A DNA stretch of 64,000 nt. It comes from Tubiluchus corallicola. Lineage: Eukaryota > Priapulida > Priapulimorpha > Priapulimorphida > Tubiluchidae. A program made the translations under genes and the position numbers. The notes under the pieces were generated by a model, which was not told the DNA's origin, did no database searches, and worked only from the letters and a program-made list of their open reading frames with translations. Within the stretch, counting starts at the first letter, position 1. Every line of letters starts with the position of its first letter. Where the stretch lies: positions 82,720 to 146,719 of the forward strand of contig JAQGDQ010000542.1 in NCBI GenBank assembly GCA_030141605.1. The letters are read 5' to 3'. Below, piece after piece: positions 6,977 to 52,869 of the stretch.

Positions 6977-7154
6977 ATGGCATGCGAGTCAAGTATTTTG
7001 CAACAGCTGAGGGATCTTGCAGCTATCTGTGTGAAATCTGATTCCACTGAAATTTATTATCCCAACACTGGCAGACAACCGGAACCTGTGCTACAGCGCC
7101 GTCTTCGGGAGATAACCTTTTCTACATTGTTTTCTCACTTAGCTGGACCACTGG
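6977..7154 (+). CDS. TUBGCP6: GCP6 exon 1
   Basis: Residues 1-59, ending in phase 1, donor GTATGT. The segment LREITFSTLFSHL corresponds to the N-terminal helix conserved in GCP6. It is preceded by A-rich sequence giving a good start context. Confidence 0.88.
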
Positions 7155-22100: not shown

Positions 22101-25100
22101 GCTACAATAAACTAAGTGAAATGGGCTACAATTTTTGAAACTCTTTGCTGATGACAGGAGGTACATGTTAACGTTCTTCTTAAAATACAGGGTAGCAACT
22201 TTCTGGTAAAGAATTCCAAAGAAAAGAAGCTTGAGGAAAAAACTTTATTGAGATAAAGCTGTTTTACATCTAGAATTGTCCGCAGTAAAATACGATGAGA
22301 AGTCTTGAGAGTATCATCCATTAAATCAGCAAAAAAGAGCATTAATACAGCAACAAATTTTTGATTTACTTATTCTTGACTTTTATTTGTTTTCTTTCTG
22401 CAGATCAGCAAGAGCAAAAGCGGAAAGCCGAAGATGCAGCAAAACGGCAACGGCTCGAGGAGATAAGAGAGCAAATGGAAGAGCAAAAAGAGGTATAGTT
22501 TCACAGATCTATGTATGTAAGAACATTTTCTTGACTTTTGGGTACATTTTGTTTTCAGCATTGACCTTTACCGTTTTTTTTATGTAAACTGGTCATGCTA
22601 AATTGTTTACCTGAACCTGAATGCAAACGTATTCATAATAGCAGTGATAATAGTAATGATGATGATGATGATACTGTTGCAGAGGTGGCCAGGGTTCTCA
22701 AGTCCAGGGTTCAAATCTGGATCAGTCAAACCATGTTGCAGACGAATATTGTAGATGAGAAAATAAACGACAAGTTTGAAAATTCAAATAGAAAATTTCT
22801 CGTATAAATTAGCCAGAATCTTTTCCTGCGTTTCTCATGCTGATCATGATTACGGAACAGGTGCTTAGGTGGTAAACACACCTGTCCATCTGCAGACTGA
22901 ACCAATGAAGCCATTCCATACCAGCTACAGTACTTATAACTGCTATGCAGTGCTGATGTGCAATGGTTTCGTAATGGATCGAACCATCACAATGTAGAAG
23001 GGGTCGAAAATAAATGGCATTACCCCTGTAACAGTACAATAATAATAATGATCAAGTGCCCTTGTTATTTGTTTGATTCATATTCAAAATAGTTTGCTTT
23101 TTAAATTGTTGACTAGTAATGTTCTAGATGAATCATTTTGATTGTGGCATTTATACCTATATAGATGGCGTTGTATTATGTTTATGTGTGAGTTGCTAAA
23201 GTTTCATATTTGGACATTTACCTACTTGGTTAGAGAAAGACAAGAATTAAGCAACGGGAAGCTGATGAAGATGCTGATAGGGTACGCAAAGCAACGAAAC
23301 AAGAAGCAGAGAAGGCAGAGGATGAAGCCGATCTTGAACGAAAAGTCAGGTAAATTACTCTGCCGGTCTTGAACCAAAGTCAGGTAAATTACTCTGCCGG
23401 TCTTGAACCAAAGTCAGGTAAATTACTCGGCCGGTCTTGAACCAATGTCAGGTAAATTACTCTGCCGGTCTTGAACCAAAGTCGGGTAAATTGCTCTGCC
23501 GGTCTTGAACCAAAGTCAGGTAAATTACTCTGCCGGTCTTGAACCAAAGTCAGGTAAATTACTCGGCCGGTCTTGAACCAATGTCAGGTAAATTACTCTG
23601 CCGGTCTTGAACCAAAGTCGGGTAAATTGCTCTGCCGGTCTTGAACCAAAGTCAGGTAAATTACTCTGCCGGTCTTGAACCAAAGTCAGGTAAATTACTC
23701 GGCCGGTCTTGAACCAATGTCAGGTAAATTACTCTGCCGGTCTTGAACCAAAGTCGGGTAAATTGCTCTGCCGGTCTTGAACCAAAGTCAGGTAAATTAC
23801 TCTGCCGGTCTTGAACCAAAGTCAGGTAAATTACTCTGCCGATCTTGAGCAAATAGTCAGGCAAATTACTCTGCTGATCTTGAACCAAAGTCAGGTAAGT
23901 TACTTTGCCGGTCTTGAACGAAAGTCAAATAAATTACCCTGCCGGTCTTGAACAAAAAGTCAGGTAAATGATCCTGCCGATCTTGAGTGAAAAGTCAGGT
24001 AAATTACCCTGCTGATCTCAAATCTTCTAGACTATATACTAGAGTCTATGGCTATATACTAACGAAAATATACTACTTCTGAATATAAATTCTCGGTCGT
24101 GGTGGGTGCCGCCTTTCACTTGAAAATTATGACGTAACTGGGAGAGTTCGTGACTTTTCGTAAGTGCGTCGCGGGTTTCCATAAGCGATGCAGCTTAAAC
24201 TATTTCAAACTTCTGTACTTCACCTACTGTTCTGGCGAAAACATGGCAAAATTAGCTATGTAATTTTTTGGTAAAAACTTTTTATGCTTTGTTGAAGATT
24301 GACAGTGTGCTACTTTTCTTCAAGACGAATGATATCATTGGAAGAATTGGACGTCATTTGGACATGCAAAATGAGAATGCCCATGCATGAAGTGATTGCG
24401 ACTTTAAAGTGATTTTACTAATGACACGAGGCACTTATTGCAGTTTTATTACTAAATCCTACTAACTTTTTTAGTGAACATTTCATAAACAGTAAAACAG
24501 GCGTACAAAAATCTGATTCTCTATGAGCAATGAAATACTTACACGAATGCCTCTCAGATCACTAAATTGTATGAAGTATAACGCCTTCCTGCATTTGTTG
24601 TGGTTGATCATACACTCGGATTTGGTGAAGTCATATAATAATGTAGCTATATTAATTCTTCACAATATGTAACTACTTGTAAGTGTAATGAGTTGGAAAC
24701 TCTTAGAAATGCCCGCACTGGGTTGTGAACCAAGGTCTCCTGCATTGAGGACAGTATTGGTAATAGCTTGCATTGTTTTCAACTTTTCCATCAACTGAAA
24801 TGTCAAATTTTGATAAAGCTCAACTTTGTTACCAAGCTTTACTCAGAAGTTTGTTTTTGTTTGCTTGTTTGTTTGTTTGTTTATTTGTATGTTTGTTTGT
24901 TTGCTGATTTTTTGATCAACTGTTTTCTGTTTATTTTTTGTCTATTTTACACTACAGTATTCAGAATTCCTACAAGAAACTTTGCTGTCTCTTCAGGTCT
25001 GAGTTGATAGAATATTACGCTGTCATATCGGAGAAGATGGAAGCCAGAGAGCAGTTGGCGATTTGGAAAACGCAGCGATATCGGCTTACTGCCAAGAGAA

Positions 25101-28100
25101 ACCAGTTTCTTCAGGCAGAAGACGACACTTTACAACAAGAAATGGCAAAACTGCGCCGTACAGAAGCCACCTCAAAATCGTCATCAGACGATTCTGTCAG
25201 CGCCGCATTCGGTCGTTCGGCAACGGAATCTAAAGTTGATGTGGTGAAGGACCTGGCAAAGTCTAATACTGATGCATCAGCAGTTTCAGAAGATACTACA
25301 GATACCCATGTAACTGAAAAACTTGTAGATGTCGCTTTGCCATCCACGGTTGCTGGATTATCGTCGGATCAAGCAGTTGGTAACTTGCTGGATTTTTCCG
25401 TGGATCCACAGATTTCCTCGCAGCTTTTACTCCCAGAAGAAAAGTCTAGCAATGTGTCTATGACTTGTGATGATTTACTGATAGACTTTTCTGTAGACAA
25501 GTTGGAAATAGCCTCGAAAAGTGAACCAAGTGTTGATGAAATTATTTACATTGGCAAAAAAGTTGATTTTGAAAATGCTACAGAATTTAATGGCAAAGTT
25601 GCTCAACCAGAACCGGTTGAGGAAAAACTTAGTGATCTGACATTCGGAGAAGTGAATCCCGAGGAAGAGCAGCAGAAAGGCCGTGCAAGTGCTGAGGCAC
25701 CATCGCTCCGGCAGAAACTGACTAAGTCACCATTAGGTGGTGCTTTTACTAACCTGATGGATTTGTCTATTACGAAGTTGCCAAAGTGGGAAACGAAAGT
25801 TTTGCCAAGTAGTACAGACGTAGTTAGAAAAATTGAGAAAAAATCCACTGATAGCATAAGCAGAACAGAAATTGATATACTCGATGAGCCAATCATAATG
25901 TTGCCTGATGACGCTACTGAAAAGTCGGAATCGGGAACGAATCTTATTGCAAAGAGTGCCGGCAGTGAAATAAGCGTCATCAGTCAACCTGATAGTGCAG
26001 CACAAACTGTAGCAAGTGAGGTGAATGCTCTTACTTCTAAAGACTCTAATACTGAAATAATAACTGTTTTTGATGATGCCTTAGAAACGCCAGTACTGGA
26101 AGAACAGAGTATTGTTTCTAAAGCTTCTGCTAGCGTATCTGATGATAGATCAGAGAAGCGTCAAAGCTTGCCAAGTGATGCTGCTGCAGCATTTGATAAT
26201 GGTGCCAAAACTCTAGAAGCCGAGAAAACGATGATTGTTGCCAAGGAACACACTGCAGGGATGCCCATATCAGTATCTGATCTTCTTCGAAATTCTCTCT
26301 CACCAACATGTGTCAGAGTTGTTGAAAGTGTAGATCCAATAGAAAAACAGAACAGTGGCGTGTCCGTGTCTGCAAAAAAGGCCCATGTGTCTGATATGTC
26401 CGAAGGATCGATGGTATTCATTCCTCGGAAAAAGAAAACATTTTCCCAGATATCAGATACGACTTGGGAGCCAGGAAGTGCCCTGAAACAGAGGTCTGGA
26501 TTGCTGAAAGTTACGTCTTTGGCACCACACGTGGAACAGCCTAAACTTCTTGGAAGCGGCCGTTGTTTAAGCGAACAAGAAGATGATTCTACAGATTTGG
26601 GAATAAGTGCACAAAATGATGATGATAGAAACGAGGTTCAGACAGTTAATGCTAAAGTACCGTTTATTTCTGAGGCAGTTGACAATGATTCTGCTGATGG
26701 AAGAGCAGTTCCAGATATGCTAATGGACACTGAAGCGTACTCGACTCACATTGTTCGTGAGCGAAACGTGCACGGACACGCCTCGGATGCCACCGTGCAG
26801 GATCTACTTAGGACCCGTGAAGTGTTGGGAAATGACATCGCAATAAGACGGGTACGCAGCGCAAGAGAACAACGTGTTCAAATGCGGTTTGATGAATTGA
26901 GCGAAGCTACTCGGGAGAGGAAAGCTCACGGTAGCCACTCATCTGATTCGACGGTGCAGCGTTATTTAGGAGGAGATCGTGAATTGAAGTCTGCACCATT
27001 AGGTGAGTTTATTAGTTGCACCATTAGGTGATTTTATTAGTTGCACCATTAGGTGATTTTATTAGTTGCACCATTAGATGAGTTTATTAGTTGCACCATT
27101 AGGTGATTTTATTAGTTGCACCATTAAGTGAGTTTATTGGTTGCACCATTAGGTGAGTTTATTAGTTGCACCATTAGGTGATTTTATTAGTTGCACTATT
27201 AGGTGAGTTCATTAGTTGCACCATTAGGTGAGTTTATTGGTTGCACCATTAGGTGAGTTTATTAGTTGCACCATTAGGTGATTTTATTAGTTGCACTATT
27301 AGATGAGTTCATTAGTTGCACCATTAGGTGAGTTTATTAGTTTATGTATTTTGTATGCAGTTAATGTAAAGTCCTGTCTTCAAGAACAAACATGCAAAAA
27401 ACCCTAGATTTCTAATAAGTACTGCAAATCTAGTAAAATTTAATGTAACAAATGTTCATGTGTGTCAGCAGTAGAATGGTTTTTCAAAAATCTTAGCCTA
27501 ACAATGAATAACAAGGCTAATTATGTTACAATTTTGGCTCAAATCTTACTATTTTACCTTTCAATGTAAGCTTATAATCATTTTTGTTGCTGTGTCTTGA
27601 CATTTGGAATAATAAATAAAAAAACAAAATAAATGAAATGAAATAGTGGCAAATGACAGGTATAGAAAAAATGTAAAGCTTCATCACCACTAGGTTTATT
27701 AACAGCAACTATACCAGAAGGTTTTGACAGTGTAATGTTTTTATAATTATTATACATATACATTTTTGTATACTCTGTGTATCTCCGGTTAAACTAGTAC
27801 TTTTTGTTGTTTTTTGCATAGATGTTTCTACCATAGACGAAGGTTGGTTAGAGAGACGATATCATTGGGAAGAGATTAAACCAGAATCGTACACAAGTGA
27901 TTATGAACGCCTTAGTCCCAGGCTAAGTATGGACTAGCTATTATAATAGTCATTTTTTTATTACAGGCACTTAAAACATTTATACTTTATTAAAAACACC
28001 ACAATTTGATTTAAATTTTTAATTTACATTGTTAATTTACATAGCTTTTAACTATCTAAATTAAAAGTTGTAATAAAGTTGTGGCATTTTAACTATAAAT

Positions 28101-31100
28101 GTTATTATAGTGTTCTCGAAATTACGCATTCTTCCAAAATTGAGAAAGACAGATCTCTTTAGCGTTTCTGGAAGAACTGGAAGAAATTTTCCAACGATTT
28201 TTATATCTAAAAAGATATTTTCCAAAGAGTTTTACATCTAATACTATCAGGCGCTTCAACTTATTATGGAAATGGATTACTGGAAACAAAACGTAGTAAT
28301 AAAATGTTTTAAGAAATTTAAACACGCTTACAGTATAATATAATTATCAGTTATGCTGATGGACTGAAATTGATTTTGAAATCTATTTTGTATTTAAAAT
28401 GATGAAGATCATTCTTACTCTTATTTTGAAATGATGTTGAGTTGATATTATTGATGGAATTTAGATTTATTGAAATATATTGATGATAATGAAAATAATG
28501 ATTTCATCAGTCATATGCCACATTGCTCAGTAAGACAGACATACATGCATTTAATAATATCTTCAATCCTTAGTATCGACATTTTATTGTCAATTGTAGT
28601 GTGTTTGTTTGTTCCTTTACAAAATTGTTGTACAAACAATAAACTCAGTGATTACAGAAGTCATTATAAGCACGTGAGGGCCAGACCTCCGCTACATCAC
28701 TGGCATTCTCTTCTGGACACTGTCAGGGGCGTAGCCAGGTTCTAAAGTTAGGGGGAGCATGCACATAAAAAGGCATCGTGAAACGTACCAACATTTTTAG
28801 CGTGGTGGTTATACATTTTAATTTTGTGTTTAAGATCAAAATACGAGGGTTATACAGTTTTAAAGGAAGTACATAATTCTTATTTTGTATTTAATACTAA
28901 AACTTCTTAGCGCTTTTCCACTGCACTCCTTACCAAAAAAATTTACGGTAGCATAATTGTTTTTCTGAACAATCTTAACGATTGACATGATATAACTTCT
29001 TCATAATAAAATATAAAGACACTGAAACTTGCCTTTGCAATATCTAATTGGCAGTAGGCCTACTACCAGACAATCTTGTGACAAAAACATTTTATAATAA
29101 TTAGATTTGGGGCAATTTGATCTTTAGTTTGATCAGTCAACCTTGACAAACAAGTTGCATAAGTGCACTCCTCATTTCAAAAACACGTGAAGCAGATTGG
29201 TCAATAAAGTAATGACTCCGGAAAATTCTTCCAGTGCCATGTGATTAAAAAAAAAAAAAAATTCAACTTCCATCGCACAGGTGAACTAATGAGTTAAAAA
29301 TTGTTAGAAAGGTGCCAATTTTGAAAAATCTGCTTGGCAAAATCGGGAAAGTGTCGCCCCCCTTAACCCCCCCCTTCCTTCTCTATCTCCTACATCACTG
29401 CACTCTATACCATTAAACTTCAAAATTCTACTCATACAATAAATGTTGGGTGGCTTGTTTGGAGTAAATAAATCTGAAATTATACGTAGAAAAGTGAAAA
29501 TATGTTTATGCTTCGTTTATTCATCATTACGTATGTATCTTGACTTTTGTTTTGCAGAGGGAAGACCATCTGGTGACGTCATGGCAACGGTGCGTGACTC
29601 TGTACGAAATTTGAGTGTGGATCTCGCCGTTTCGTCTGATGGCAGTGATGTGGACGCTTGTGATTACCTTCCTCTTCCTGTTCTGCTGGAAAGATGCATC
29701 ACCGTTCCACTGCAAACTCAGTGAGTATTGTTAGTTATGCATCACCGTTCCACTGCAAACTCAGTGTGCATTGTTAGTTATGCATCACCGTTCCACAGCA
29801 AACTCAGTGAGTATTGTTAGTTATGCATCACCGTTCCACTGCAAACTCAGTGAGTATTGTTAGCTATGCATCACCGTTCCACTGCAAACTCAGTGAGTAT
29901 TGTTAGCTATGCATCACCGTTCCACTGCAAACTCAGTGAGTATTGTTAGTTATGCATCACCGTTCCACTGCAAACTCGGTGAGTATTGTTAGCTATGCAT
30001 CACCGTTCCACTGCAAACTCAGTGAGTATTGTTAGTTATGCATCACTGTTCCACTGCAAACTCGGTGAGTATTGTTAGTTGTATTTTATGCCTCATTCAC
30101 ACTAGCAAGCTTTCTCGCCAGGGCATTTGCAAGTGTTTCAGATGAAAGAACAAAATTTGTTGCGAGTTTCTCTTCGACAGTAAGGGCAGTCTGACATTCA
30201 TTTCTTTATTCACTGCGATACGTGTCGTGAGTAACTCCTTCAGACATTCAGATTAAAGAGGAAGTCAACTTACAGCACTCACATTTTTGAAGAGTTTGCA
30301 ATTTCTTGTCGGCAGTAACTTGCAGTCATTCACACTTGCGAATTTCCTGTCAGAGAGAAAATTGGTAATCAGAGCGCACTGTTTAACCAATTTTGAGATT
30401 GCATTCTTGAGTTTTCAGTTTTCCTCGGAGAATTTTTTCATCTTTTGAAAAAAATCACACCCACTGTTTGTGGTGCCTTAGCATTTTATCCGAGGTTTGT
30501 AGAACTTTATAGTTTACATAAGAATTGTAGTGTTTTGAAGCGGCTATCAAAATATTGTGTAAATAAGACGTATAAAAATTTCTTATGTCACAGGTTGAAT
30601 TAAATATGTAGTAATTGCAAAGAGCTAGAAAACACTAATTACTGCGATAAAAATTCATATTTACAAAGTGGAAATCTTCAACGGTCACCCTTTGCTCATA
30701 TGAAAGCTTAAAACACACATTTTTTATATCTGTAACTGGAAAACAAAATTGGATGACAGAACCTGAGGAATGTAAAACTATATGGTATTCTGAACTTGAA
30801 ACTTTGCAAGATCATTTTGTTCCATCTCGCATTTTTGCAAGACCGGTCTCGTAAGACAAATATTAGTTCGTATAACTTTCTTTTGTTTTTTCTTCTTCCT
30901 TACTGCTTCTCACATGAAAAATTGTAGCACGTAGAAAATAGTTTTAAGTCTGTAATAATGTTTATTGATGTTAAGTTACACCTGCACTACTAAATACAGT
31001 TAATAATACAATTAGTTAATAAATAAATAAATAAATACACAGTAAATAAACTGATTTACTGATTTATTTTTTTATTAAATCACTAAAACACCAAACTTCG

Positions 31101-34100
31101 TAAAACTGATTTACTGACTTACTTATTACTAAACCCACTAAAATATTGACCTTCGCACTCGAGCCTTCAACGGTGGAAAGTTGGCAGTGTATCACTTTAG
31201 TAAGAAATAGGAGAAACCTTAGACATTCACTTACTACCAGTTTCATTTCCCCTCTAGTTTTCATATTCAAATCAGGATTAGCCTGATGTCTTTGTTCCTG
31301 AATACACATGCATAAACTTTAATGCCCTTGGGTTTTATAATTTTTGACAGTTATTGGCAAATAATCTTTGAAAGTGTTATCCGTTCTCATATAAACAATG
31401 ATTAGGTAACTTCCTGTCTTAGCTCAGAAGCGTCCCAATTTAGGTTTTAGATTAACTTATTTGTCCATTTAACACAATATTACAATATACGAACTATTAC
31501 AATTACAGAATTGACATGCACTGCAATTTAATGAGCGTAGCAAATTGTATAAGTTTCGGTTCTGTTCACACAATGGCTAATCCTGCACATCTACATTGTA
31601 ATCACATTTGATGTTTTCAGCGTAAGTCTAGTAAATGCTGCTGTACTGCGATACTTCATGGTTGAACTGGATTTGGCAGAAAACTTTGCGGCATTGCGAA
31701 GATTTCTGCTATTGGAAGATGGTGAATTTGGGCAGATGCTGAGTGATTTGCTGTTTGATAAGGTGAAAATTTGTGCTTTTTTGTTATTTTAACATATGAT
31801 GCAAATCTTATCCTTGATAAATTATTGCTAATATTTTTCATCTATTATTTTTTTATTTCACCTTCTACTATATTTTATTTTTATTATTGCGAAAACTATT
31901 GCAGAATTATAACCTAATAAAAAATTGTGTGAAAAAGTTAAAAGTGTGATATTAGATTTATTTCGTTTTAGATAGTACTTGAAGTTGTCTCATTGCAGTC
32001 TTGAAAGTGCTTCTGCATTGTTGTGAAACAATCGTCTTTTTTATTGTTAAGCAAGAGAATTCAATATTCAAAAAACAATGCACTGTTATGGATACCTGGT
32101 GATGTGGCTCAGTATTAGTATGCTTGCTTCTTACCCGGGTTGTTGTGGATTCAACTCCCGGCCAAGTCATATCTAAGACGTAAAAACTCGATCTTTGACC
32201 AGGCATGCAGGTTTATCGAAGCAATGTGCGGGGTAATAAAAATCAGAACCACCTTGAAAATAAGTATTGAGGTACTTAAGGTGTTATTCCTGAGTTATGT
32301 CCTAAATGATATTATTATTATTATTATTTTATACATTAGTGTTACTTAAGTCATGGTACTTATGCTGTTGATATCAAATTTTTGTCGTTAAACTTTAAAT
32401 TACTCATGATCTCAAAATGGATCTGCAAAAGTGTGTTATTACAAGGCACAAAAAATTAATTAGTTGTTTGATTGAGATGCCATGACACTCATCTGCTTAA
32501 GTTAACATGTTCATTAAGCTCACAGATGATCGTTTCAACTTAGCAGTCATTTTCAATGCTAAAAATAAGGCAAAAAAGGAATATTAAGTACATTTGATAC
32601 TGCAATATTAACGCACACAATACAAAACCAAACACTAGAAATTAAATTGTCAGAATAATCGTCGTTGTAACTGGAAAGAAATTCAAAAGAAATGTAAAAG
32701 TTACCTTATGTATGAGATTCAGAAAATATTGCAACACAGTAAACCATTAGTGCAAGTCTACGTAATGAAGATCCACGGTTACAAGCATTAGAATGATAAA
32801 ACAAAAACTTCTACACAGACCACTACAGGACCTGATGGAAGAGTCAAATTGGTCTAGAACACAGAGATAGTTAGATCTGCAGCATGAATGGTGCTACTGA
32901 TTATAGTGGGATGTTAGGAACTGAGCGGCGCTTCATAATATACAAGGCCTCTTCTATCTTGAAATCCTGAATAGTTCTTGTACCATGTAAGATGTTAAAT
33001 GCAGAGTCGAGTCAGTGCCGGATTAAGGCATGGGCTTTATGGGCTGCAACCCAGGGCCGCAGAGTTGAGTCAGTGCCGGATTAAGGCATGGGCTTTATGG
33101 GCTGCAACCCAGGGTCTCTGCCAGCTGAGAGGCCTCCAGAGGTTAAGTGCAATTAACTTACTGTGAAAAGTTACTAACTACAAAATGAGAGTAGAAGTAT
33201 GCTGAATTATCTCTTTAAAATGGTTCCATTATTTAATATGCTGTATAATGATACACTGGAATTATTTTCTTATCCATTATTTCAACTCACAAGGCACTGG
33301 TAATCCTAATTACATTGACACAATGTTGTAGTAATTGAGGCCACATCTCCTGTGACAGAACTAAGAAATCTTTTTGTTGTGAGAGACTTCCACCCATCTA
33401 TGTGGTCCTATGTTGTCATTAGGTTGTAGAAGTTGAATAAACTGATTTGATGAATCCAACATTCATGCTTTTGTAAATTGTCACTGGTGCTCTACAAAAT
33501 CAAAATCCGCGCTGAGTCGAAGCTATAAGAATAACATCTCATTATAGATTGCCGTGTGTTCCAATCCAGCAGAATTCTTCACGCCTCTTGTTCTGCAACC
33601 ACTTCTTAACGAAGCACTACGATCTTCACTTTACGGCGAGTCTCCTCATGCGGACAAGGTGAGCTTTATGTTGAAGCGTGTGCCTGCGAAGCTCTTTCCT
33701 ACAGGTGAGTAACAGGTGCTGAATACATTTTTAGGGGAAGCTCTTAAATGAATTAACTGATTATTTCTGTGTGTGTGCGTCAAGCAGTGTAATATACATT
33801 TTATGCAAATAGTGCAATTCTGCTTTTACGCAATAGTTGTTAATTTTATTACACTGAATATTTAGGCAAAATCAGCTGATGACTCTATTAAGACAGGTTC
33901 TTAAGCTTTGTATTGATCACGTTTGTATCAAGTGTTTTGTTGCATTTTGAGTAAATTTATCAAGATTTTGTGCTATTTTGTTCAGTAAATGAAACGTTTT
34001 TCATGGGGTGCTAGCAGACTTTTCTCAGGTAATCAAATTATCTGAACATTTCAACAAAAACAAAAAACCAACACCTTCAATTAGCTAAACATGTTATTAG

Positions 34101-37100
34101 CTAATTAGCCAATTAAATGATGAACATCGATTTAGTGTGTGCTGATGTTGTATGTATAAAAAAGTCCTACAATTTCATCTAACAGCAAGCTAGAGCTTAG
34201 CTGAAACAGTAGGTTGCCATGGTGTTCGTAACATGCAGCCTGTTATGTGCATTGTTCTGCTGTACATTCCAACAATGCAGTACGGACTGCTCATTGGAAA
34301 AAATTGTGTTGCTATGGCGACCGAGTGATCTTTTGTCTGCCATCTAGTGGTAACTTAAAAAAGCATTGCAAGTGTGTAATTGCGCTATTTGCAGTTGTAT
34401 ATATATATATCTTTATATTATTTCAGCAATAGATACGTTTGACTGCCTGGAGCTTCACTACAAGGTTGACTGGCCGTTAAACATCGTCATAACAGAAAGC
34501 AACATGTCTGCTTACAACTCAATACTCGCCTTCATGTTGCGCTTGAAGCGGACAATTTGGGTTCTGAATGACGTCTGGCATAATTTGAAAGCTTGTTCGG
34601 CAGTAACTGATATCGGAGAGTCGTCACAGTTTCGGAAGCTGCAGTTGTACAGGTAGATTTTTTGTACTATTGTGGAATTGTTCATTTATGGTGACCTAAA
34701 TACTTAAAATTGCAAATTTTGTTTGTAGAGAGCCCAAAAAAGCTTCAGGGAGAAAAAAGGAGAGACAAAAAGAGGAAGAGAGTGAGAGAAAGGTGGAAAG
34801 GAGAGACAGTGAGACTAGATCAGTTTGTAACAAGTTTTTTCATTGGTGGTTTGACAGGCACGAGATGCAGCATTTCGTACGAGCAATACAAGGTTACATC
34901 GCTAATCAAGTGGTTTACGTCTCCTGGCAAGAGTTTCAAACAGAGCTAGAGCAGCAGGTGTGTAACCTTGACGACCTGCGCAGGTGTCACACACAGTATC
35001 TTCGTAAAGCTGTTCTCAGGTAAATGAAAGGTGACAGTTTTGAACCCCCACATGAGTGCCACGCCTAAGATAAGGTTGTCATAAAAATAGCATGTCCTTG
35101 TTGATGACCTAAGTATGTTGATTACTCATGTGTGGGTAAACAGTTTAGCCTAATTTTTACGTTTTTGCTCCTATATCAAGTCTTTAAATGATCACAGCTT
35201 TTTTAACCATACCACTATCTTAGCCCTACCGCAGGTGTCTACCCTGCTTCAGGGCCGGATTGTTCTATAGGCTAATATAGGCTGCAGTCTAGGGTCCTTC
35301 CAACTTAGGAAGCCCTGCTAAAACATTTTCAAATATAAATTTGGGTTTAGTGGTTATAAAAAATCTATTTCTTCGCTAAACTTTTGCTGAAATATGTGCT
35401 AATTTGGTATGCAATAGACAGTTGAATAGTGGTATTTCTTAAAGAATATTTTTATTGACAAACAAAAGATAGATCTTATAGTTACTAAAATATGAAATAT
35501 GTAAATGCTACTAAAATATTTCATGGGTAAAAGTACTCAAATGGGATGCAGGGGAGTTGTGGGGTGGCTCCATCTGAGGGTCCCTATAATTTCATTTGCC
35601 TAGGGAGCTCAGAAGGTCACAATCCTACCCTGCCCTTCTTACTTACATGACTCTATGTGTCATAGTTTTTGACTTAACACAATGTTATGCATCCAACTGA
35701 CCAATGTCCTATACTCTTGAGCCTTTGACTGTGAGGTCACCATTCACTGTACCATTGTCAATGTCCCTAGCCCAGTTGTTTTGGGCTGGTTTCGTGTGTC
35801 TAGCCCTGTGTGTTTGTAATCTAATATGAATTTTTCATGTCTTCACAACAACAACAACAAGGATGCGTTACAACCTCTGATTACTGGATCCAATATGCAG
35901 AAAACTCACCATTGTGACCAGTGAGATTTTTCCTGCAGTTTAGCCCTGTGCAAGCAATGATCCAGCTTTCCATGGCAAGGTCTACTCAATGTAGATGATT
36001 GTGGCATGACTGGGATCTAGATCGTTATCAAGAATAATCTTCTAACATGAGACTATGGACTAGCCGGGGGGAGGGGCGGCTCAATCATGTTCGGCTGTGT
36101 ACGCCTTCCTCCAACATGGGCAATGTGGCAGCTGAAACTGCAAAGAAGCTGAAGATCACCTGTTCTCTCGGTTGCAGGGCTTACCAATTTAATTATCAAG
36201 CTCATTATCAAAGATAGTTCTTGTCAAAAACACTTAATTTTATTACGATGAATGATTGATTTTTATTCTTCGAAAACATTTTATCTGATTTTAGCGATTT
36301 AATTGAATGTTTTTAACTGTATGTAAACAGTTCGAATTTTGTAAAAATAGGCGGGAGAGCAAAACAGGGCGACCGAATGACCTAAATTCAATTACTTTTG
36401 CATTTTCGATGCAAACAAACACTGAATTGAGTTTAATTTGCAACAATTTTCAAAATGTATGTATTTCACTTTTTTATCAAAAAAAAGAACAAGTAATTGA
36501 AATATGCGCCTAGTTATTAATAAATATTAGATTTTTACGATGACGATGAAGCAAGATTAATTAGTACATGTTTAGTAATAAAGGCTTACTGGTCTATTAT
36601 AAAAGACCTACGTTATGTATATATATAGGCAATAATCCTAATTCAGCTAATTGCATGACCAATTGAGCAACATGCCAGCTATACTATAGACTTGAATGAC
36701 AGTTACATAGGTAATTGATTACGATGCAAATTTACATTGACATTCAAGAACCAGTTTGCACGAGCAAATCCATGCAAACAGGGTAAAAAATACTTTAACT
36801 TGACACATGCCATACTGACGTAGTATTGGTAGTTCTCGACAGTCCCGTTAAGATGAGGCACTGAACTGAATGGGGTGTCTCAGTCATGTTCGTATATGTG
36901 TGCATCTTCTCTCGGCAAAGCACATATTCTTGGGCAGTACAACGCTAGAAATTACGAAGAACCCACATGTTGCCAACCCATTCTTTGATCAGGCACAACC
37001 ATACTTAACTTTACTTACTAGATGTAGACCTGCGGCGATTCATCTCGCTCATGAACAGAGTAAGCACTTCATTCCATTATGGCTTGTATTTTCAGATGTT

Positions 37101-37973
37101 TACTGAATAAGAAGGCCAGTCCAGTAGTGAAGATAATCAATGACATCTTTCACGTCATCCTCGAGTTTCACGAACAAGTACTCTCATACTCCTGGCGGTG
37201 GAACGAGGAGGCGGAGGAACTCCAGCACCCCCTATTTCCACGAATTGTGACCAGTTACGAAAACTTTCAGCGGTACTCAACTTTCCTGTTTAGACGTAAG
37301 TAATTTTTTCTTGATTGGTTAGAAGTTGCGCTGACAAGCCACTGATATGGAAATTTCTAGTTTTTTGCTGAATTACTGCTGTGTTTACTTGTCTTGAGGG
37401 CAGAATGCAAAATGCTGCAGCCTGCATTGTAAGCAATTTTATTTGACCATTACTGCTTTCTGATAAAATACAGGATAGATTTTAAAATACTCCTGCTTGC
37501 TTATAAATGTGTGTGCCAGTTGGCTCCCTGTTATCTTCAAGAGTTAATTTCATGGAATATTCCACAGTGTAATTTGCCTTCAGCAAATTCAATGAACTTG
37601 GTCAACCTAGAACAGAACTAGTCAATTGTGGAGGACGGTAATTCTCGTCTGTCGCTCCTCTGTTAGGAAAGCAAACGCTGTATGGTAGTCAGAGTCATTT
37701 TCAATTTTTATAACATGCCTCAAAACCTTTTTATTTCAAAAAAAAACTTTTAAGTTTTTGTAATTACTTAATCAAATTAATTTAAATCAATGTAGGTTGT
37801 GATTGCATATTAAATTTTATATGTAGAATTGTAATGTATGTATTATTTATCTTTGCTTTTAGTTTTATCGTAGTGTACAACTTTTAAACCCATTCCTGGT
37901 ATGTTTTTACTCACACTGTGTAGCTATTATCATTGTGAAGCCCTACAGAATTTTATGGATTTGAGGCTAAAAA

Positions 37974-38063
<90 letters not shown>

Positions 38064-39448
38064 GTTATTATTCTTATTAGTATTAGTATTATCATCATCA
38101 ACATCATCATTACAGTAGACGCCGCTTAATAGATTCACTTTGGAACCGAAATGTTTTGACCCAATTAACCGATTGAACCTATTAACCGATGGTTGTAGTA
38201 TTACTGGTGTAGCAGTATGAGTCATCAACTTACTGCGCCCTGCAAAGGTTTTTAATGAATTTTAGTAATGCCTAAATTCTTTTGTGCAGTTAAAAATCTA
38301 AAAAAAGTATTTTAAATTATTAATTTAGGTAAGTGAGTTAGAATAAATTAAAAAGTATACTTTTCTAAATCACACAAGTCTTTTTTTGCAAAATTTACAA
38401 AAATTCCTTCAAAGTCGGCTGTTCCATTTTCTCCTGAAGAAGTTGACTCACAAAGTTCTCGTAATTATAAAAACGTTGAAAATCTGTTGCAATGTATTTT
38501 CCTAAAACATTTGCTGGCGGCGCACTGCGAGTTGGTGGTACTGTCAATAAAATGCACATGAATGAAAACAGTTGCAGTAAAACACCATGAATACTATGTA
38601 GAATAAACAAGTTCACTAGTGTTTTGCAGGTTTAATAGTTTGCTTATTGTATTATGCTCAATAAGTGTGTTCATTAGTTCACCTGTTTAGTGGTGTTGAC
38701 AGGTAACAATGGGCTTCACTCGTCTCGCCTGTTTGTGGTGTTGACAGGTAACAATGGGCTTCACTCGTCTCGCCTGTTTGTGGTGTTGACAGGTAACAAT
38801 GGACTTCACTGGTCTCACCTGTTTAGTGGTGTTGACAGGTAACAATGGGCTTCACTGGTCTCACCTGTTTGTGGTGTTGACAGGTAACAATGGGCTTCAC
38901 TGGTCTCACCTGTTTAGTGGTGTTGACAGGTAACAATGGGCTTCACTGGTCTCGCCTGTTTAGTGGTGTTGACAGGTAACAATGGGCTTCACTGGTCTCG
39001 CCTGTTTAGTGGTGTTGACAGGTAACAATGGGCTTCACTGGTCTCACCTGTTTGTGGTGTTGACAGGTAACAATGGGCTTCACTGGTCTCACCTGTTTGT
39101 GGTGTTGACAGGTGACAATGGGCTTCACTTGTCTCACCTGTTTGTGGTCACACGCTGTTGCGTTTCTGTATGTTGTAATGTTGAAACACTGTAACAAAAT
39201 TTACCAAACACACTTAATTTTAGAGTAGGTGTGATGCCAAGCAAAATTAATTCAGAATTTGATGGATACATCTCCACTTGCTGATCAACTATTATCGTTG
39301 TAAGCATGTTGCATCATGTAACCCATCACTTTGTTTTTTAATTGCAGTGCTGCACAAACTGGCTAGTCGTGGATACGAGACACACTTGAAAATACTTCTC
39401 AATATTCTCAACCTCAACGACTATTATTCTGCACAAACGGAGAGCTGA
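6977..39448 (+). CDS. TUBGCP6: Gamma-tubulin complex component 6, complete gene (24 coding exons)
   Basis: GCP6 is a scaffold subunit of the gamma-tubulin ring complex, which nucleates microtubules at centrosomes and spindle poles. Joined exons: 6977-7154, 8071-8211, 9578-9717, 9958-10058, 11034-11319, 12881-13053, 14461-14668, 15259-15368, 15756-15941, 16890-17158, 18548-18684, 19961-20088, 21082-21185, 22404-22492, 23234-23349, 24997-27002, 27822-27926, 29558-29720, 31621-31762, 33548-33704, 34427-34652, 34858-35019, 37096-37295, 39348-39448. The total is 5,628 bases, in frame throughout, or 1,875 residues. Domains: divergent N-terminus 1-340, GRIP1-type domain about 341-690, charged coiled-coil region 690-790, long acidic Ser-rich linker 800-1490, GRIP2 gamma-tubulin-binding domain about 1493-1870. 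The long insert between the GRIP domains and motifs such as AAFPTG, DYGEFM, YKVDWPLNIVIT and HEMQHF identify GCP6 rather than GCP2-5. ATG context is AAAGATGG. The gene is expanded by intronic minisatellites. Confidence 0.95.
7684..7985 (+). repeat. Dispersed repeat, copy A (GCP6 intron 1)
   Basis: About 300 bp related to 63374-63698. Shared blocks are AATCCTACTCTCATTACGA, a GGTCACCAAAGA/GGTGACCAAAGA segment, TTTAATTTATA and CTCTTTTGTTTAA. The open frames within it are not gene exons. Family unknown. Confidence 0.75.
8071..8211 (+). CDS. TUBGCP6: GCP6 exon 2
   Basis: 47 codons, phase 1 to 1, acceptor ATTCCAG, donor GTGTGC. Contains a helical segment LQQLLAVIYKMRLHRDYDRA. Confidence 0.85.
9046..9352. 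repeat. Block-structured pentanucleotide microsatellite
   Basis: About 30 ATATT units (9051-9200), then 9 ACATT (9201-9245), then 19 ACCTT (9246-9340), then 2 ACATT. Adjacent blocks differ by one substitution each. Located in GCP6 intron 2. Confidence 0.97.
9361..9556. repeat. 25-bp minisatellite, about 8 copies
   Basis: Unit around CATGTCCAGTAGAATGCTTA plus GTGCT. Late copies vary (GTACC, GTACT, GTTCT). It ends about 20 bases before the exon 3 acceptor, and each unit carries a CCAG. Confidence 0.95.
9578..9717 (+). CDS. TUBGCP6: GCP6 exon 3
   Basis: Phase 1 in, 0 out. Acceptor TTTTCAG, donor GTGTTA. Encodes VKSMIQLLLSLAG followed by a basic stretch (RRIEKRPIF), matching the leucine-rich helix plus basic segment of the GCP6 N-terminal region. 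Confidence 0.87.
9958..10058 (+). CDS. TUBGCP6: GCP6 exon 4
   Basis: Phase 0 in, 2 out; donor GTAACG. Encodes PPVYGDSNYRCVDDLQYM, aligned with the VPYSGYDCDDL segment of vertebrate GCP6. Confidence 0.88.
10059..11033. other. GCP6 intron 4, no recognised element
   Basis: AT-rich, nothing identifiable apart from short T and ATAATT runs. An open frame at 10975 simply runs into exon 5. Confidence 0.5.
11034..11319 (+). CDS. TUBGCP6: GCP6 exon 5
   Basis: Phase 2 in, 0 out; acceptor TATTTCAG, donor GTAAAG. 95 residues, polar and poorly conserved. Confidence 0.85.
11320..12880. other. GCP6 intron 5, no recognised element
   Basis: Contains a short CTGT repeat near 11444 and AT-rich sequence. No mobile element or RNA gene recognised. 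Confidence 0.5.
12881..13053 (+). CDS. TUBGCP6: GCP6 exon 6
   Basis: Phase 0 in, 2 out. Encodes EPDEGFTQLSTPSSD and IWERALDYIPSDHYTWETIG, matching the DEGFxS...LTPDS and WE.AL.Y region just before the GRIP1 domain of GCP6. Confidence 0.92.
14461..14668 (+). CDS. TUBGCP6: GCP6 exon 7 (start of GRIP1 region)
   Basis: Phase 2 in, 0 out. Encodes KKYMTEAGPKIVDELY, equivalent to the YLTEAG motif of GCP6, then the first GRIP1 helices (RQLVADLVNLMCGIESETF). Confidence 0.93.
14781..15049. mobile_element. Foldback MITE in GCP6 intron 7
   Basis: Long palindrome: AAGGTAGTTAATTAATAACA at the left end recurs inverted at the right end (TTAATTAACTGCCTTTT), with AAGGTCTATTA and TTTTAGTATT/AATACTAAAA arms inside. 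It is non-coding and should fold into a hairpin of about 270 bases. Confidence 0.85.
15112..15185. repeat. 27-bp tandem repeat, 2.7 copies
   Basis: Identical units around ATGGTTTACTCGCATGTGGT in GCP6 intron 7, about 75 bases before the exon 8 acceptor. Confidence 0.95.
15259..15368 (+). CDS. TUBGCP6: GCP6 exon 8
   Basis: Phase 0 in, 2 out; donor GTGAGT. Encodes GLYISGIDPECLTDMLSD then AECGTFFYR, matching the conserved SG.SPE....L..VAE.GT.Y.R stretch of GCP6. Confidence 0.93.
15505..15665. repeat. Intronic dispersed repeat, copy 1 (intron 8)
   Basis: Segments CATTTAGAGGCTTGACTCAA, TTCTTCTCGCTTGGTAT and ACACAAGCAAATGTTTTTTT recur in intron 9 (16245-16670), on the other side of exon 9. Confidence 0.8.
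15756..15941 (+). CDS. TUBGCP6: GCP6 exon 9
   Basis: Phase 2 in and out; donor GTGAGT. Encodes VYQSFLSGLRNYLRQYQACI and TLLEVVYLFQPLRAQIR, the QAF.SGLRRYL.YYRAC core of the GRIP1 domain. Confidence 0.95.
16245..16670. repeat. Intronic dispersed repeat, copy 2 (intron 9)
   Basis: Diverged partner of 15505-15665. It also carries a short internal duplication of a TTTTTAGATATTTTACTATA segment (about 16603 and 16672). Confidence 0.78.
16890..17158 (+). CDS. TUBGCP6: GCP6 exon 10
   Basis: Phase 2 in, 1 out; donor GTGAGT. Highly conserved GRIP1 segment: AAFPTGISLLSYLYNEALHH, YPVLLSLLQISCKPYLCFIR, DWVFHGTCRDDYGEFM. Confidence 0.97.
17679..17990. repeat. 52-bp minisatellite, about 6 copies
   Basis: Unit includes TTAGCAACTGCTTCCTTGGT and TTTCTGTGATGTTAGATTTG. 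Central copies are near-identical and edge copies diverged. GCP6 intron 10. Confidence 0.95.
18548..18684 (+). CDS. TUBGCP6: GCP6 exon 11
   Basis: Phase 1 in, 0 out. Encodes ERFWKKAF then VPSFLRDLAEEMYVCGKTVY, matching the VP.FL...A..IYVCGKTI.LL motif ending GRIP1. Confidence 0.95.
19130..19511 (+). mobile_element. RTE-like LINE reverse transcriptase C-terminus, fragment
   Basis: Open frame with ILGIRWPKKISNKDLYEKIK, then LTWIGHMLRLPDD and a short AKKPAGGQ...YL stretch. The order (ILGIRW, then L.W.GH..R.PD, then GG/GRP..W/Y) is typical of the C-terminal domain of RTE/Jockey-type non-LTR retrotransposons. It is 5'-truncated, lies inside GCP6 intron 11 on the sense strand, and is not a GCP6 exon. 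Confidence 0.82.
19961..20088 (+). CDS. TUBGCP6: GCP6 exon 12
   Basis: Phase 0 in, 2 out. Encodes LTITFSSAELSTTVAKCELY, matching the IS.IFSLEEL segment. The donor (AG then GTTCGC) is weak. Confidence 0.85.
20126..20623. mobile_element. Pogo/Tigger-like MITE, 498 bp, with TA target duplication
   Basis: Ends CAATGTTCCCTCGCTTACCG and, inverted, CAGTGTTCCCTCGCTACTTC, flanked by TA on both sides (20124-20125, 20624-20625). The CAGTGTTCCCTCGC terminus is typical of non-autonomous pogo/Tigger-class elements. No transposase. Inserted in GCP6 intron 12. Confidence 0.9.
21082..21185 (+). CDS. TUBGCP6: GCP6 exon 13
   Basis: Phase 2 in, 1 out. Charged helix (LRDEAKLAQVKEDRRKVSHE) opening the central coiled-coil region; acceptor TTTAACAG. 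Confidence 0.87.
21821..21880 (+). repeat. tRNA-like SINE remnant (intron 13)
   Basis: Contains AGCTGACAGAGCATGGGAG and a B-box GGTTCAAATCCC with tRNA-like spacing, but no matched acceptor stem. Not an intact tRNA gene. Confidence 0.45.
22404..22492 (+). CDS. TUBGCP6: GCP6 exon 14
   Basis: Phase 1 in, 0 out; acceptor TTTCTGCAG. Strongly charged heptad-like helix: QQEQKRKAEDAAKRQRLEEI. Confidence 0.87.
23234..23349 (+). CDS. TUBGCP6: GCP6 exon 15
   Basis: Phase 0 in, 2 out. Encodes KQREADEDADRVRKATKQEA and ends DLERKVR, equivalent to the E.ELERKAR stretch of human GCP6. Its last bases plus the donor GTAAAT are the seed of the 34-bp array that follows. Confidence 0.9.
23334..24020. repeat. 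34-bp minisatellite, about 19-20 copies, seeded by exon 15 end and its 5' splice site
   Basis: The unit runs from CTTGAACCAAAGTCAG into GTAAATTACTCTGCCGGT. The first unit is the real exon end and donor. Central units form a 4-unit, 136-bp higher-order period marked by TCTGCC, TCGGCC, CAATGTC and GTCGGGTAAATTG variants. The last units (23880-24010) are diverged and again resemble the exon (GAAAAGTCAG). Every unit carries a complete AG/GTAAAT donor. Confidence 0.97.
24050..24490 (+). repeat. Dispersed element, copy 1 (GCP6 intron 15)
   Basis: About 430 bp whose reverse complement lies at 61930-62340. Shared blocks include AAAATTATGACGTAACTGGG, TTTATGC/ATTGACAGTGTGCTACTTTT and TTACTAAATCCT. Non-coding, probably a DNA-element family member. 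Confidence 0.82.
24997..27002 (+). CDS. TUBGCP6: GCP6 exon 16 (large central exon)
   Basis: 2,006 bases, phase 2 in, 1 out, residues about 789-1457. It begins with the end of the coiled coil (LAIWKTQRYRLTAKRNQFL, matching ALWRIQRHRLESARLRFL of GCP6), then a long acidic, Ser/Thr-rich linker expected to be disordered. Near the end are two related motifs, NVHGHASDATVQDLL (about residue 1380) and KAHGSHSSDSTVQRYL (about 1433). These correspond to the HGHVSDASI repeats that are amplified in vertebrate GCP6. The exon end seeds the 25-bp array that follows. Confidence 0.95.
26991..27345. repeat. 25-bp minisatellite, about 13-14 copies, seeded by exon 16 end and its 5' splice site
   Basis: The unit reads TTGCACCATTAG then GTGAGTTTATTAG; the first CACCATTAG/GTGAGT is the real exon-intron junction. 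Copies vary between GTGAGT and GTGATT, so only about half keep a good donor. Confidence 0.97.
27822..27926 (+). CDS. TUBGCP6: GCP6 exon 17
   Basis: Phase 1 in and out; acceptor TTTGCATAG, donor GTATGG. Encodes EGWLERRYHWEEIKPESY, comparable to the YHLERYPDSYE stretch before the GRIP2 domain. The frame would end at a TAG soon after if unspliced. Confidence 0.82.
28724..29400. mobile_element. hAT-like non-autonomous element, diverged (intron 17)
   Basis: Begins CAGGGGCGTAGCCAGGTTCT, a terminus common to hAT-type MITEs. The inverted right end reads CAGTGATGTAGGAG followed by a C/G-homopolymer-rich stretch, an imperfect match. Flanking octamers match only partly, so the limits are approximate. 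Confidence 0.5.
29558..29720 (+). CDS. TUBGCP6: GCP6 exon 18
   Basis: Phase 1 in, 2 out. Encodes YLPLPVLLERCITVPLQT, matching LLTLPVLMKRSITAPL at the start of the GRIP2 domain. The junction CTGCAAACTCA/GTGAGT seeds the following 43-bp array. Confidence 0.95.
29690..30085. repeat. 43-bp minisatellite, 9 copies, seeded by exon 18 end and its 5' splice site
   Basis: Each unit holds CATCACCGTTCCACTGCAAA, CTCA and GTGAGTATTGTTAG. The first unit's first half is exon 18 coding sequence. Copies are 95% or more identical and all but the second carry GTGAGT. Confidence 0.97.
31621..31762 (+). CDS. TUBGCP6: GCP6 exon 19
   Basis: Phase 2 in, 0 out. Encodes VSLVNAAVLRYFMVELDLAE and LRRFLLLEDGEFGQMLSDLL, near-identical in pattern to the vertebrate GRIP2 start. 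Confidence 0.97.
32101..32170 (+). repeat. tRNA-like SINE remnant (intron 19)
   Basis: A-box-like TGGCTCAGTATTAG and B-box-like GGATTCAACTCCC, spaced as in tRNA-derived SINEs. Stems do not form an intact tRNA. Confidence 0.45.
33004..33118. repeat. Tandem pair of hAT-like ends (intron 19)
   Basis: Two near-identical 55-bp copies carrying AGTGCCGGATTAAGGCATGG and GGGCTGCAACCCAGGG. These resemble the termini of the element at 35250-35632. Confidence 0.8.
33548..33704 (+). CDS. TUBGCP6: GCP6 exon 20
   Basis: Phase 0 in, 1 out. Encodes FFTPLVLQPLLNEALRSSLY and GESPHADKVSFML, the NPLVL...L..AL..SL.GD.PHA motif of GRIP2. Confidence 0.95.
34427..34652 (+). CDS. TUBGCP6: GCP6 exon 21
   Basis: Phase 1 in, 2 out. 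Contains DCLELHYKVDWPLNIVITES, the signature GRIP2 motif, then SILAFMLRLKRTIWVLNDVW. Confidence 0.97.
34858..35019 (+). CDS. TUBGCP6: GCP6 exon 22
   Basis: Phase 2 in and out. Encodes HEMQHFVRAIQGYIANQVVY and CHTQYLRKAVLR, conserved gamma-tubulin-binding helices. Confidence 0.97.
35250..35632. mobile_element. hAT-like MITE, 383 bp (GCP6 intron 22)
   Basis: Terminal inverted repeats CAGGGCCGGATTGT and (inverted) CAGGGTAGGATTGT. Flanked by octamers CCCTGCTT (35242-35249) and CCCTTCTT (35633-35640), one mismatch, as expected of an 8-bp hAT target duplication. No transposase. Confidence 0.85.
37096..37295 (+). CDS. TUBGCP6: GCP6 exon 23
   Basis: Phase 2 in, 1 out; acceptor TTTTCAG, donor GTAAGT. 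Encodes LLNKKASPVVKIINDIFHVI and YENFQRYSTFLFR, matching LLTEKAAPVMNVIHSIF and YNTFKYYSHFLF of GCP6. Confidence 0.96.
37395..37965 (+). mobile_element. CR1/L2-like LINE 3' end, decayed (intron 23)
   Basis: With frameshifts and stops, it reads through ILLLAYKCVCQLAPCYLQEL, then SANSMNLVNL and a VAPLLGKQT stretch. This is the order (LL.FK.L...AP.YL..L, then R...L) seen at the C-terminus of CR1/L2 reverse transcriptases. It leads into the TTA-type tail at 37973. Confidence 0.78.
37973..38088. repeat. (TTA)n microsatellite
   Basis: About 35 TTA units, probably the expanded tail of the adjoining LINE fragment. Confidence 0.97.
38113..38400 (+). mobile_element. Pogo/mariner-like repeat, copy 2 (intron 23)
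   Basis: TA then CAGTAGACGCCGCTTAATA, a duplicated ATTAACCGAT motif, and the same tail AAAAAGTATACTTTTCTAAA as 4378-4660. Confidence 0.7.
38680..39152. repeat. 45/46-bp minisatellite, about 10 copies, with AG/GT junction in each unit
   Basis: The unit includes GTGTTGACAGGTAACAATGG and CTTCACTGGTCTCACCTGTT. TTGACAG/GTAAC is an acceptor fused to a donor. Located in GCP6 intron 23, 200 bases before exon 24. Confidence 0.96.
39348..39448 (+). CDS. TUBGCP6: GCP6 exon 24 (terminal, stop TGA)
   Basis: Phase 1 in; acceptor ATTGCAG. Encodes LLHKLASRGYETHLKILLNI then DYYSAQTES and TGA, immediately followed by TAA. Matches the NRGYQPHLEDFLLRINFNNYY end of human GCP6. Its last bases seed the following array. 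Confidence 0.95.
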
Positions 39449-41040
39449 TAACTTGTTAACAGATGGGAGTAGTATGTTAATTTGATCGTGCGCCACTTCT
39501 TTATTCTGCAGAAACGGAGAGCTGATAACTTGTTAAGAAACAGATGGGAGTAGTATGTTAATTTGATCGTGCGCCACTTCTTTATTCTGCAGAAACGGAC
39601 AACTGATAACTTGCTAAGAAGAACTTGTCACAGATGGGAGTAGTATGGTTTATTTGATCGTGCGCCACTTCCTTATTCTGCACAAACGGAGAGCTGATAA
39701 CTTGCTAAGAAGGATTTGTCACACATGGGAGTAGTATGGTTTATTTGATCGTGCGCCACTTCCTTATTCTGCACAAACGGAGAGCTGATAACTTGCTAAG
39801 AAGGATTTGTCACACATGGGAGTAGTATGGTTTATTTGATCGTGCGCCACTTCCTTATTCTGCACAAACGGAGAGCTGATAACTTGCTAAGAAGGATTTG
39901 TCACACATGGGAGTAGTATGGTTTATTTGATCGTGCGCCACTTCCTTATTCTGCACAAACGGAGAGCTGATAACTTGTTAACAGATGGGAGTAGTATGTT
40001 GATTTGATCGTGCGCCACTTCCTTATTCTGCAGAAATGGAGAGCTGCTAACTTGTTAAGAAGGATTTGTCACAGATGGGAGTAGTATGTTGATTTGATCG
40101 TGCGCCACTTCTTTATTCTGTACAAACGGAGAGCTGATAACTTGTTAACTTGTTACAGATGGGAGTAGTATGGTCGATTTGATCGTGCGCCACTTCTTTA
40201 TTCTGCAGAAACGGAGAGCTGCTAACTTGTTAAGAAGAACTTGTCGCAGATGGGAGTAGTGTAATTGATTTGATTGTGCGCCACTTCTTTATTCTGCGCA
40301 AACAGAGAGCTGATAACTTGTTAACTTGTCACAGATGGGAGTAGTATGGTCGATTTGATCATGCGCCACTTCTTTATTCTGCAGAAACGGAGAGCTGATA
40401 ACTTATCAGGAAGACCTCGGAGTAGTATAGTGGATTTGTCTGTGCGTCACTATTCTTTATTCTGGGAACAGAGAGCTAATAACAGTTGTGAATGGCAGTA
40501 GTAGTCCATCTAGTTTGCAACAATTACTGTGCATTCGTTTCAACATTCGCAACCTTGCTGATGACTTGTTGAAAGACATAAGAGTGGTATAGTTGATTTG
40601 CCTGTGCTTCACTTTTCTTTATTATGCAGTAACAGAGAGCTGTTAACTTATTAAGATGACCCCTGTTATAGATGGGAGTAGTATAGTCGATTTGCTTGTG
40701 TCCCAATTTTCTTTAGTCTATAAATACATGATAACAGTCATTGTGGGTGTAGTATAGTACATCTACTCTGCATATGACTCAACATTCTCAATCTCAACTG
40801 TTATTCTGTAGGGAGATGATGACTTGTTAAAACACATAACAGTTGTATAGTCGATTTGCCTGTGCGTCACTTTTCTTTAATCTATAAACTGGGAGTTAAT
40901 ACAACCATTGATGATACTAGTATAGCTGATTGGTCTATACAACACGTTTGTTCATTCTACATAAATGGAGCTTGTCAGCAAGACATCAGTCACAAGTGGG
41001 AGTAGTATAATCAATTTGCTGTGCGTCACTTTTTGTGCCA
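39424..41040. repeat. Array of about 80-100-bp units copied from the end of the GCP6 coding sequence
   Basis: At least 13 units carry TTATTCTGCACAAACGGAGA plus GCTGATAACTTG, i.e. the last codons, the TGA-TAA stops, and a 3' flank ending GATCGTGCGCCACTTC. Units near the gene are close matches; beyond 40,400 they are progressively diverged. It probably forms most of the 3' UTR. Confidence 0.95.

Positions 41041-43867: not shown

Positions 43868-52869
<9,002 letters not shown>

Follow-up and report, generated by a model that had tools for sequence, protein, structure and literature searches.

Three introns of the TUBGCP6 (GCP6) gene of Tubiluchus corallicola begin with a minisatellite whose first unit lies across the end of the preceding exon and its 5' splice site, and a fourth array runs outward from the last codons and stop codon of the same gene. 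The reading that we favour, with a probability of roughly 80%, is that the donor arrays are exon-border minisatellites of the 'mirage' type, in which a tandem duplication across the exon end and its donor has grown into the intron. A short tandem duplication would have chanced to cover the 3' end of an exon together with its 5' splice site, and would then have expanded into the intron through unequal exchange or slippage. Selection for an intact protein and a working first donor would have preserved the exon-side copy, while the remaining copies would have been free to mutate or to be homogenised, and splicing would take the exon-side donor and skip the 7 to 17 copies downstream of it. The growth mechanism and the choice of donor are the steps of this account that we infer.

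Four minisatellites at exon ends of TUBGCP6

The window, the whole stretch of 64,000 nucleotides that was analysed, corresponds to positions 82720-146719 of contig C1038, in an assembly of 343.5 Mb and 2,344 contigs. Splice signals and the reading frame were used together to assemble a model of the TUBGCP6 coding region on the forward strand (6977..39448), with 24 exons, 1,875 amino acids and one terminal stop; the exon numbering of the initial annotation agrees with it. The C-terminal part of the predicted protein matched TUBGCP6 chains in the PDB, which we take to be vertebrate, with an E-value of 1.6e-104 over 338 of the 343 residues of the query. The middle, coiled-coil part also matched TUBGCP6 chains (E = 2.1e-34), and the Pfam domain GCP_C_terminal was found with E = 3.1e-62. 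A GC-AG donor considered for exon 17 was dropped, since the frame needed CTAA/GTATGG.

The G+C content of the window is ∼36%, that of Branchiostoma being near 41%, and an Rfam scan of the window gave no match. Searches of the assembly for the GFP, COX1 and GH6 protein families were negative; as a check on cephalochordate affinity they are weak, the controls of the GFP and GH6 searches having been negative too. Upstream of TUBGCP6 there is an SH3-domain exon on the minus strand at 724-906 (Pfam SH3_1, E = 2.4e-14), presumably resembling the N-terminus of NCKIPSD, and an open stretch at 5262-5881, reported by the exon finder described below, which we take to be a fragment of a retrotransposon polymerase. 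Tandem Repeats Finder (TRF) located an interstitial, telomere-like AACCCT repeat at 44141-44247. In a downstream gene, arrays at 48214-48404 and 48655-49104 lie ∼80 and 50 bp past predicted exon ends (48132 and 48607, respectively) and do not cross the donors.

In the model, exons 15, 16 and 18 end at 23349, 27002 and 29720, and exon 24 ends with the stop codon at 39448. An array starts inside each of these four exons, at 23, 11, 27 and 25 bp from the respective end, so that the earlier description of four arrays beginning in coding sequence is borne out. All lie on the forward strand. Exon 15 (23234..23349) ends in GTCAG/GTAAAT, and its array (23327..24012) consists of 20 copies of a 34/35-bp unit (TRF, 34 bp × 20.1), of which the first 23 bp are the exon end. 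Exon 16 (24997..27002; 2,006 bp) ends in CCATTAG/GTGAGT and leads into 14 copies of a 25-bp unit (26992..27342; TRF, × 14.0), the first 11 bp being exonic. For exon 18 (29558..29720), which ends in CAAACTCA/GTGAGT, the array has nine copies of a 43-bp unit (29694..30080; TRF, × 9.0) and the first 27 bp are exonic. These extents come from TRF and from dissection of the units, and TRF and the gene model together confirm the exon-end-plus-donor units of 34, 25 and 43 bp that had been read from the sequence initially. The array at exon 24 (39348..39448, including the stop codon after LNDYYSAQTES) has units of ∼91 bp with a 182-bp higher order and occupies 39424..41032, its first 25 bp being coding; TRF reports the 91/182-bp repeat at 39424-40404, and a unit search extends it through degenerate copies up to 41032. 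The four arrays had been placed in the interval 23334..41040, of which the right-hand end is within 8 bp of ours and the left-hand end needs correction to 23327.

The base immediately 5' of the array start breaks the repeat at each of exons 15, 16 and 18. When the 400 bp following each of the 23 donors of the gene was searched for sequence similar to that donor, only exons 15, 16 and 18 were above the null. Searching the assembly with the four array regions, by a method that skips very common words, gave matches to this locus only; the exon 24 region had two matches, both within the TUBGCP6 locus. The arrays were apparently seeded locally.

The initial annotation took the exon ends to be the source of the arrays, and this stands for two of the four. 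The exon 15/16 and exon 18/19 borders both lie inside unbroken alignment to the PDB TUBGCP6 chains, which passes through them at LERKV/RSELIEYY and VPLQT/HVSLVN, respectively. Since this alignment takes in the exonic half of the unit at both exon 15 and exon 18, the exon should be older than the array, and judged by these alignments the exon is the source at both places. The exon 16 border is placed by frame and splice consensus, without homology support. At exon 24 the homology stops at NDYYS, and the coding bases of the array fall at or past this conserved end of the protein; copying there may have run in either direction, and the array may have arrived at the end of the gene from the 3' side.

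The internal structure of the exon 15 array bears on the same point. The exon copy and the copies at the far edge have several features in common (a length of 35 bp, GATCTTGA and GAAAAGTC), whereas units in the middle of the array have been homogenised at a length of 34 bp and recur in blocks of four. Such a pattern of edges and middle would follow from an ancestral exon sequence, and the layout fits what unequal exchange would leave with the edges preserved. Copy numbers of tandem repeats are frequently wrong in assemblies, and arrays of this kind could arise if repeats had been collapsed or expanded at exon ends by the assembler. However, the copies differ from one another by substitutions, and those of exon 15 show the four-unit higher-order pattern. 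Since distinct substitutions among the copies imply that at least several of them are real and distinct, an assembly artefact is very improbable.

Lengthened introns and the choice of donor

Tandem duplication across AGGT had been proposed initially as the process at work here, the arrays being seen as intron gain repeated many times. According to the available part of the source (PMC4974935), the Rogers model of intron gain predicts tandem copies at AGGT sites, with both splice sites of the new intron coming from the copies, and under it the arrays would have created the three introns. The array units of exons 15 and 16 do contain AG/GT; that of exon 18, in contrast, has CA/GT and not AGGT. 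More telling is the position of the acceptors, which lie 984, 479 and 1,540 bp beyond the ends of the arrays of exons 15, 16 and 18, respectively, the arrays making up 19-42% of each of the three introns. Origin of both splice sites from repeat copies therefore fails, with the acceptors 479-1,540 bp outside. Since the acceptors are outside the arrays, the arrays lengthen introns that already existed and create none. Intron gain at exons 15, 16 and 18 was rejected on these grounds, and creation of the three introns by the Rogers route has, in our judgement, hardly any likelihood. What the arrays do show is that introns can lengthen from the exon end, and that a tandem duplication of the border need not make a new intron.

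The arrays have added 17, 11 and 7 donor-like sites downstream of exons 15, 16 and 18, respectively, 35 in total, and several of these score as high as the first donor or higher. When each array donor was joined to the normal next exon, none of the 35 kept the reading frame. The first stop fell at codon 1 in the case of exons 15 and 18 and at codon 9 to 27 in that of exon 16, so that use of any array donor would truncate the protein. Since no array donor is in frame, we infer that the exon-side copy must be the productive donor at all three exons. If splicing does pick the exon-side donor from among 8 to 18 similar ones, genes of this kind are natural experiments on 5' splice-site choice.

Chance, selection and preferred seeds

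The next question is whether exon ends are preferred as seeds, or whether arrays arise anywhere and selection fixes the copy on the exon side. For the former, the number of exon-end arrays in TUBGCP6 was compared with a null in which nine arrays of the gene (units of 15-200 bp, at least 2.4 copies; a 2.0-copy array at 33001 was excluded) were given random tolerated placements. Over 60,000 simulations the mean was 0.24 exon-end matches, and three or more were reached with a probability of 1.4e-3. The value for four or more, 6.7e-5 (4/60,000), is in keeping with the earlier claim that chance would rarely give four exon-border matches, but it is post hoc and overstates the case, because TUBGCP6 was picked for showing the pattern. 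The four matches nevertheless exceed the random-placement null and would not be predicted by simple random seeding, and TUBGCP6 hints that exon ends may be preferred seeds.

The data from outside this gene, beginning with a sample chosen without regard to the pattern, are mixed. Of 20 requested stretches of the assembly 15 were obtained (L002-L016; five contigs were too short), giving 137,856 bases that are biased to longer contigs and include one stretch, L010, that is half N. The reading frames of L002 (contig C151:20001-30000) look bacterial by eye, and this contig is probably a contaminant. The sample contains 38 arrays, or ∼1 per 3.6 kb. Donor motifs were not enriched in the units of these 38 arrays (mean p 0.52); three of the 38 reached p ≤ 0.05, including two from L010, where the null is poor. 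Exon-border arrays are thus at most a minority class.

We also looked for exons in the sample, with an exon finder trained on TUBGCP6 alone whose rate on random single-strand sequence, at a cut-off of 22, is 3 exons per 200 kb. With the same cut-off the unselected sample yielded 29 exons, including four from the bacterial-looking L002 and at least two transposon-like reading frames, and one of the 29 had an array at an end. Eleven of the 29 exon peptides, some cut to the first 70 residues, were checked against Pfam or the PDB; three were unmatched and eight were matched, to five genes (G6PD, ALDH, SLC6, PEX13 twice and ARPC3 three times). The exon with the array is that of G6PD (L006, 6135-6469, minus strand; PDB E = 1.1e-11, with a Pfam score under the curated cut-off). 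It ends in GSRYK/, and a 20-bp array begins at the first base of the intron. As this array abuts the exon and copies none of it, we count it as closely related to the pattern but not as a complete example.

Further cases came from a search of the assembly for CAGGTAAGT, a donor word, in tandem. Seventeen loci (L017-L033) were fetched, of which 13 have a TRF array holding the word and four do not (L023, L024, L028 and L033). Exon-finder cut-offs of 14 and 12 were applied to them, and all scores quoted here are above 22. There is fair support for arrays spanning the exon border in three other genes, and to that extent recurrence at exon ends does hold. The first is a carboxypeptidase exon (L022), supported by the PDB, with a 30-bp duplication in two copies of which 14 bp are exonic, perhaps an early stage. 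The second (L026; score 35) has 33-bp units with 26 bp exonic, in an exon that we take to be TXNDC9-like; it had no match in Pfam or the PDB. The third is a coiled-coil exon (L030; score 38) with 47-bp units and 36 bp exonic, a locus picked partly for its coding-looking unit. L017 is a weak case, with what looks by eye like a first exon encoding a signal peptide and a 4-bp overlap with the array. L018 is weak also: its exon scores 24, compared with up to 23 for stretches within the array itself; TRF places the start of the array 27 bp past the end of the exon, and by eye an older-looking copy precedes it. At L021 the exon scores 58 and the array begins 13 bp after it. No exon was found at seven of the 13 donor-word arrays (L019, L020, L025, L027, L029, L031 and L032). 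Two of these share a 44-bp unit, arrayed in 24 copies at L019 (1989-3032) and in four at L029 (1878-2066); since the flanks differ, some arrays or seeds may move.

At first sight the tandem word counts speak for a strong excess. Tandem copies of the donor word number 520 assembly-wide, compared with 41 for the reversed control word, and a second raw count gave 391 versus 87; single sites number 5,468 and 2,250, respectively. The 520:41 excess is inflated, because many of the copies sit in dispersed satellites, and copy-level counts were abandoned as an argument for strong enrichment once dispersed families appeared among the places listed. Two such satellites carry a 5' splice-site consensus: a 15/30-bp repeat, GGTACAGGTAAGTTTG, on at least seven contigs (C507, C557, C676, C823, C854, C864 and C911), and a 26-bp repeat, AAGGTGAGTCAGTGGTGCACACTGGG, on at least seven others (C5, C29, C48, C100, C101, C227 and C567). 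Among the matches listed, on contigs C1-C417, 14 contigs have the donor doublet and four have that of the control, a ratio of 3.5 compared with 2.4 for single sites; three of the 14 (C47, C58 and C390) have no TRF array holding the word. The control word forms tandem doublets at seven loci from its 2,250 sites, and with so few control loci the doublet comparison gives no clear excess.

Two explanations have to be weighed against these data. On the first, minisatellites are born anywhere at a uniform rate, an array that spans a donor persists since its first donor still works, and GCP6 is simply a lucky gene that caught the eye. The density of arrays, the unenriched donor motifs and the modest difference between doublet and single-site ratios are all in its favour. 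It is harder to reconcile with the simulated probability for GCP6, and with the fact that an array adjoins one of the eight Pfam- or PDB-supported exon ends in the unselected sample where ∼0.07 would be predicted, a loose comparison in that the G6PD array abuts its exon and the prediction concerns spanning arrays. Random seeding with an exon copy frozen by selection, the alternative already raised in the initial annotation, is enough to explain most of our measurements, and we put pure chance with selection at a little under even odds.

On the second, the junction itself promotes tandem duplication and there is a real genome-wide excess at exon ends. This would account for the GCP6 cluster, for the G6PD array in the unselected sample and for the spanning arrays in the three other genes; against it stand the lack of donor-motif enrichment and the many satellite copies within the raw excess, and we consider it unlikely. 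Slightly less likely again is the bolder combination in which exon-donor junctions are true minisatellite seeds and splicing strictly takes the first donor, passing over as many as 17 near-identical copies, with arrays accumulating repeatedly, even several per gene, and possibly outside the lineage of the mirages.

Comparison with amphioxus mirages and other tandem duplications

A genome-wide count of exon-border arrays was not found in the open-licence PMC literature. In the available parts of the reports on amphioxus, mirages are tandem duplications resembling minisatellites that cover exon-intron borders, and they are described in a handful of genes: Adh3, the globin genes BflGb6 and BflGb9, and also TnC and PGBD5 (PMC3087553, PMC3902484). 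Many of their units carry AG/GT, splicing is reportedly undisturbed and copy number reportedly variable (PMC3087553, PMC3902484). The units at exons 15, 16 and 18 of TUBGCP6 likewise span the exon-intron border and carry splice signals, repeated in the downstream donor-like sites, and in their predicted anatomy the donor arrays of TUBGCP6 are minisatellites of the mirage type.

There are also differences. The units at the TUBGCP6 donors, of 25-43 bp, compare with 10-72 bp in Adh3 and 150-160 bp in the globins, as given in those parts of the amphioxus reports. Mirages as described there include arrays on the acceptor side, whereas no TRF array lies over an acceptor in TUBGCP6. Unlike the amphioxus mirages, TUBGCP6 has three donor arrays and one stop-codon array in a single gene.

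The known cases of intron gain, which in the accessible text of PMC4974935 include vertebrate ATP2A1, 24-bp AGGT repeats in fission yeast and the potato RdRp gene, likewise involve short tandem duplications of AGGT. The TUBGCP6 arrays are unlike these, having their acceptors outside the array and no new intron. With ordinary intronic minisatellites they have in common the size of the unit, the homogenised middle and the divergent edges; what sets them apart is a first unit that is partly coding and that is predicted to hold the working donor.
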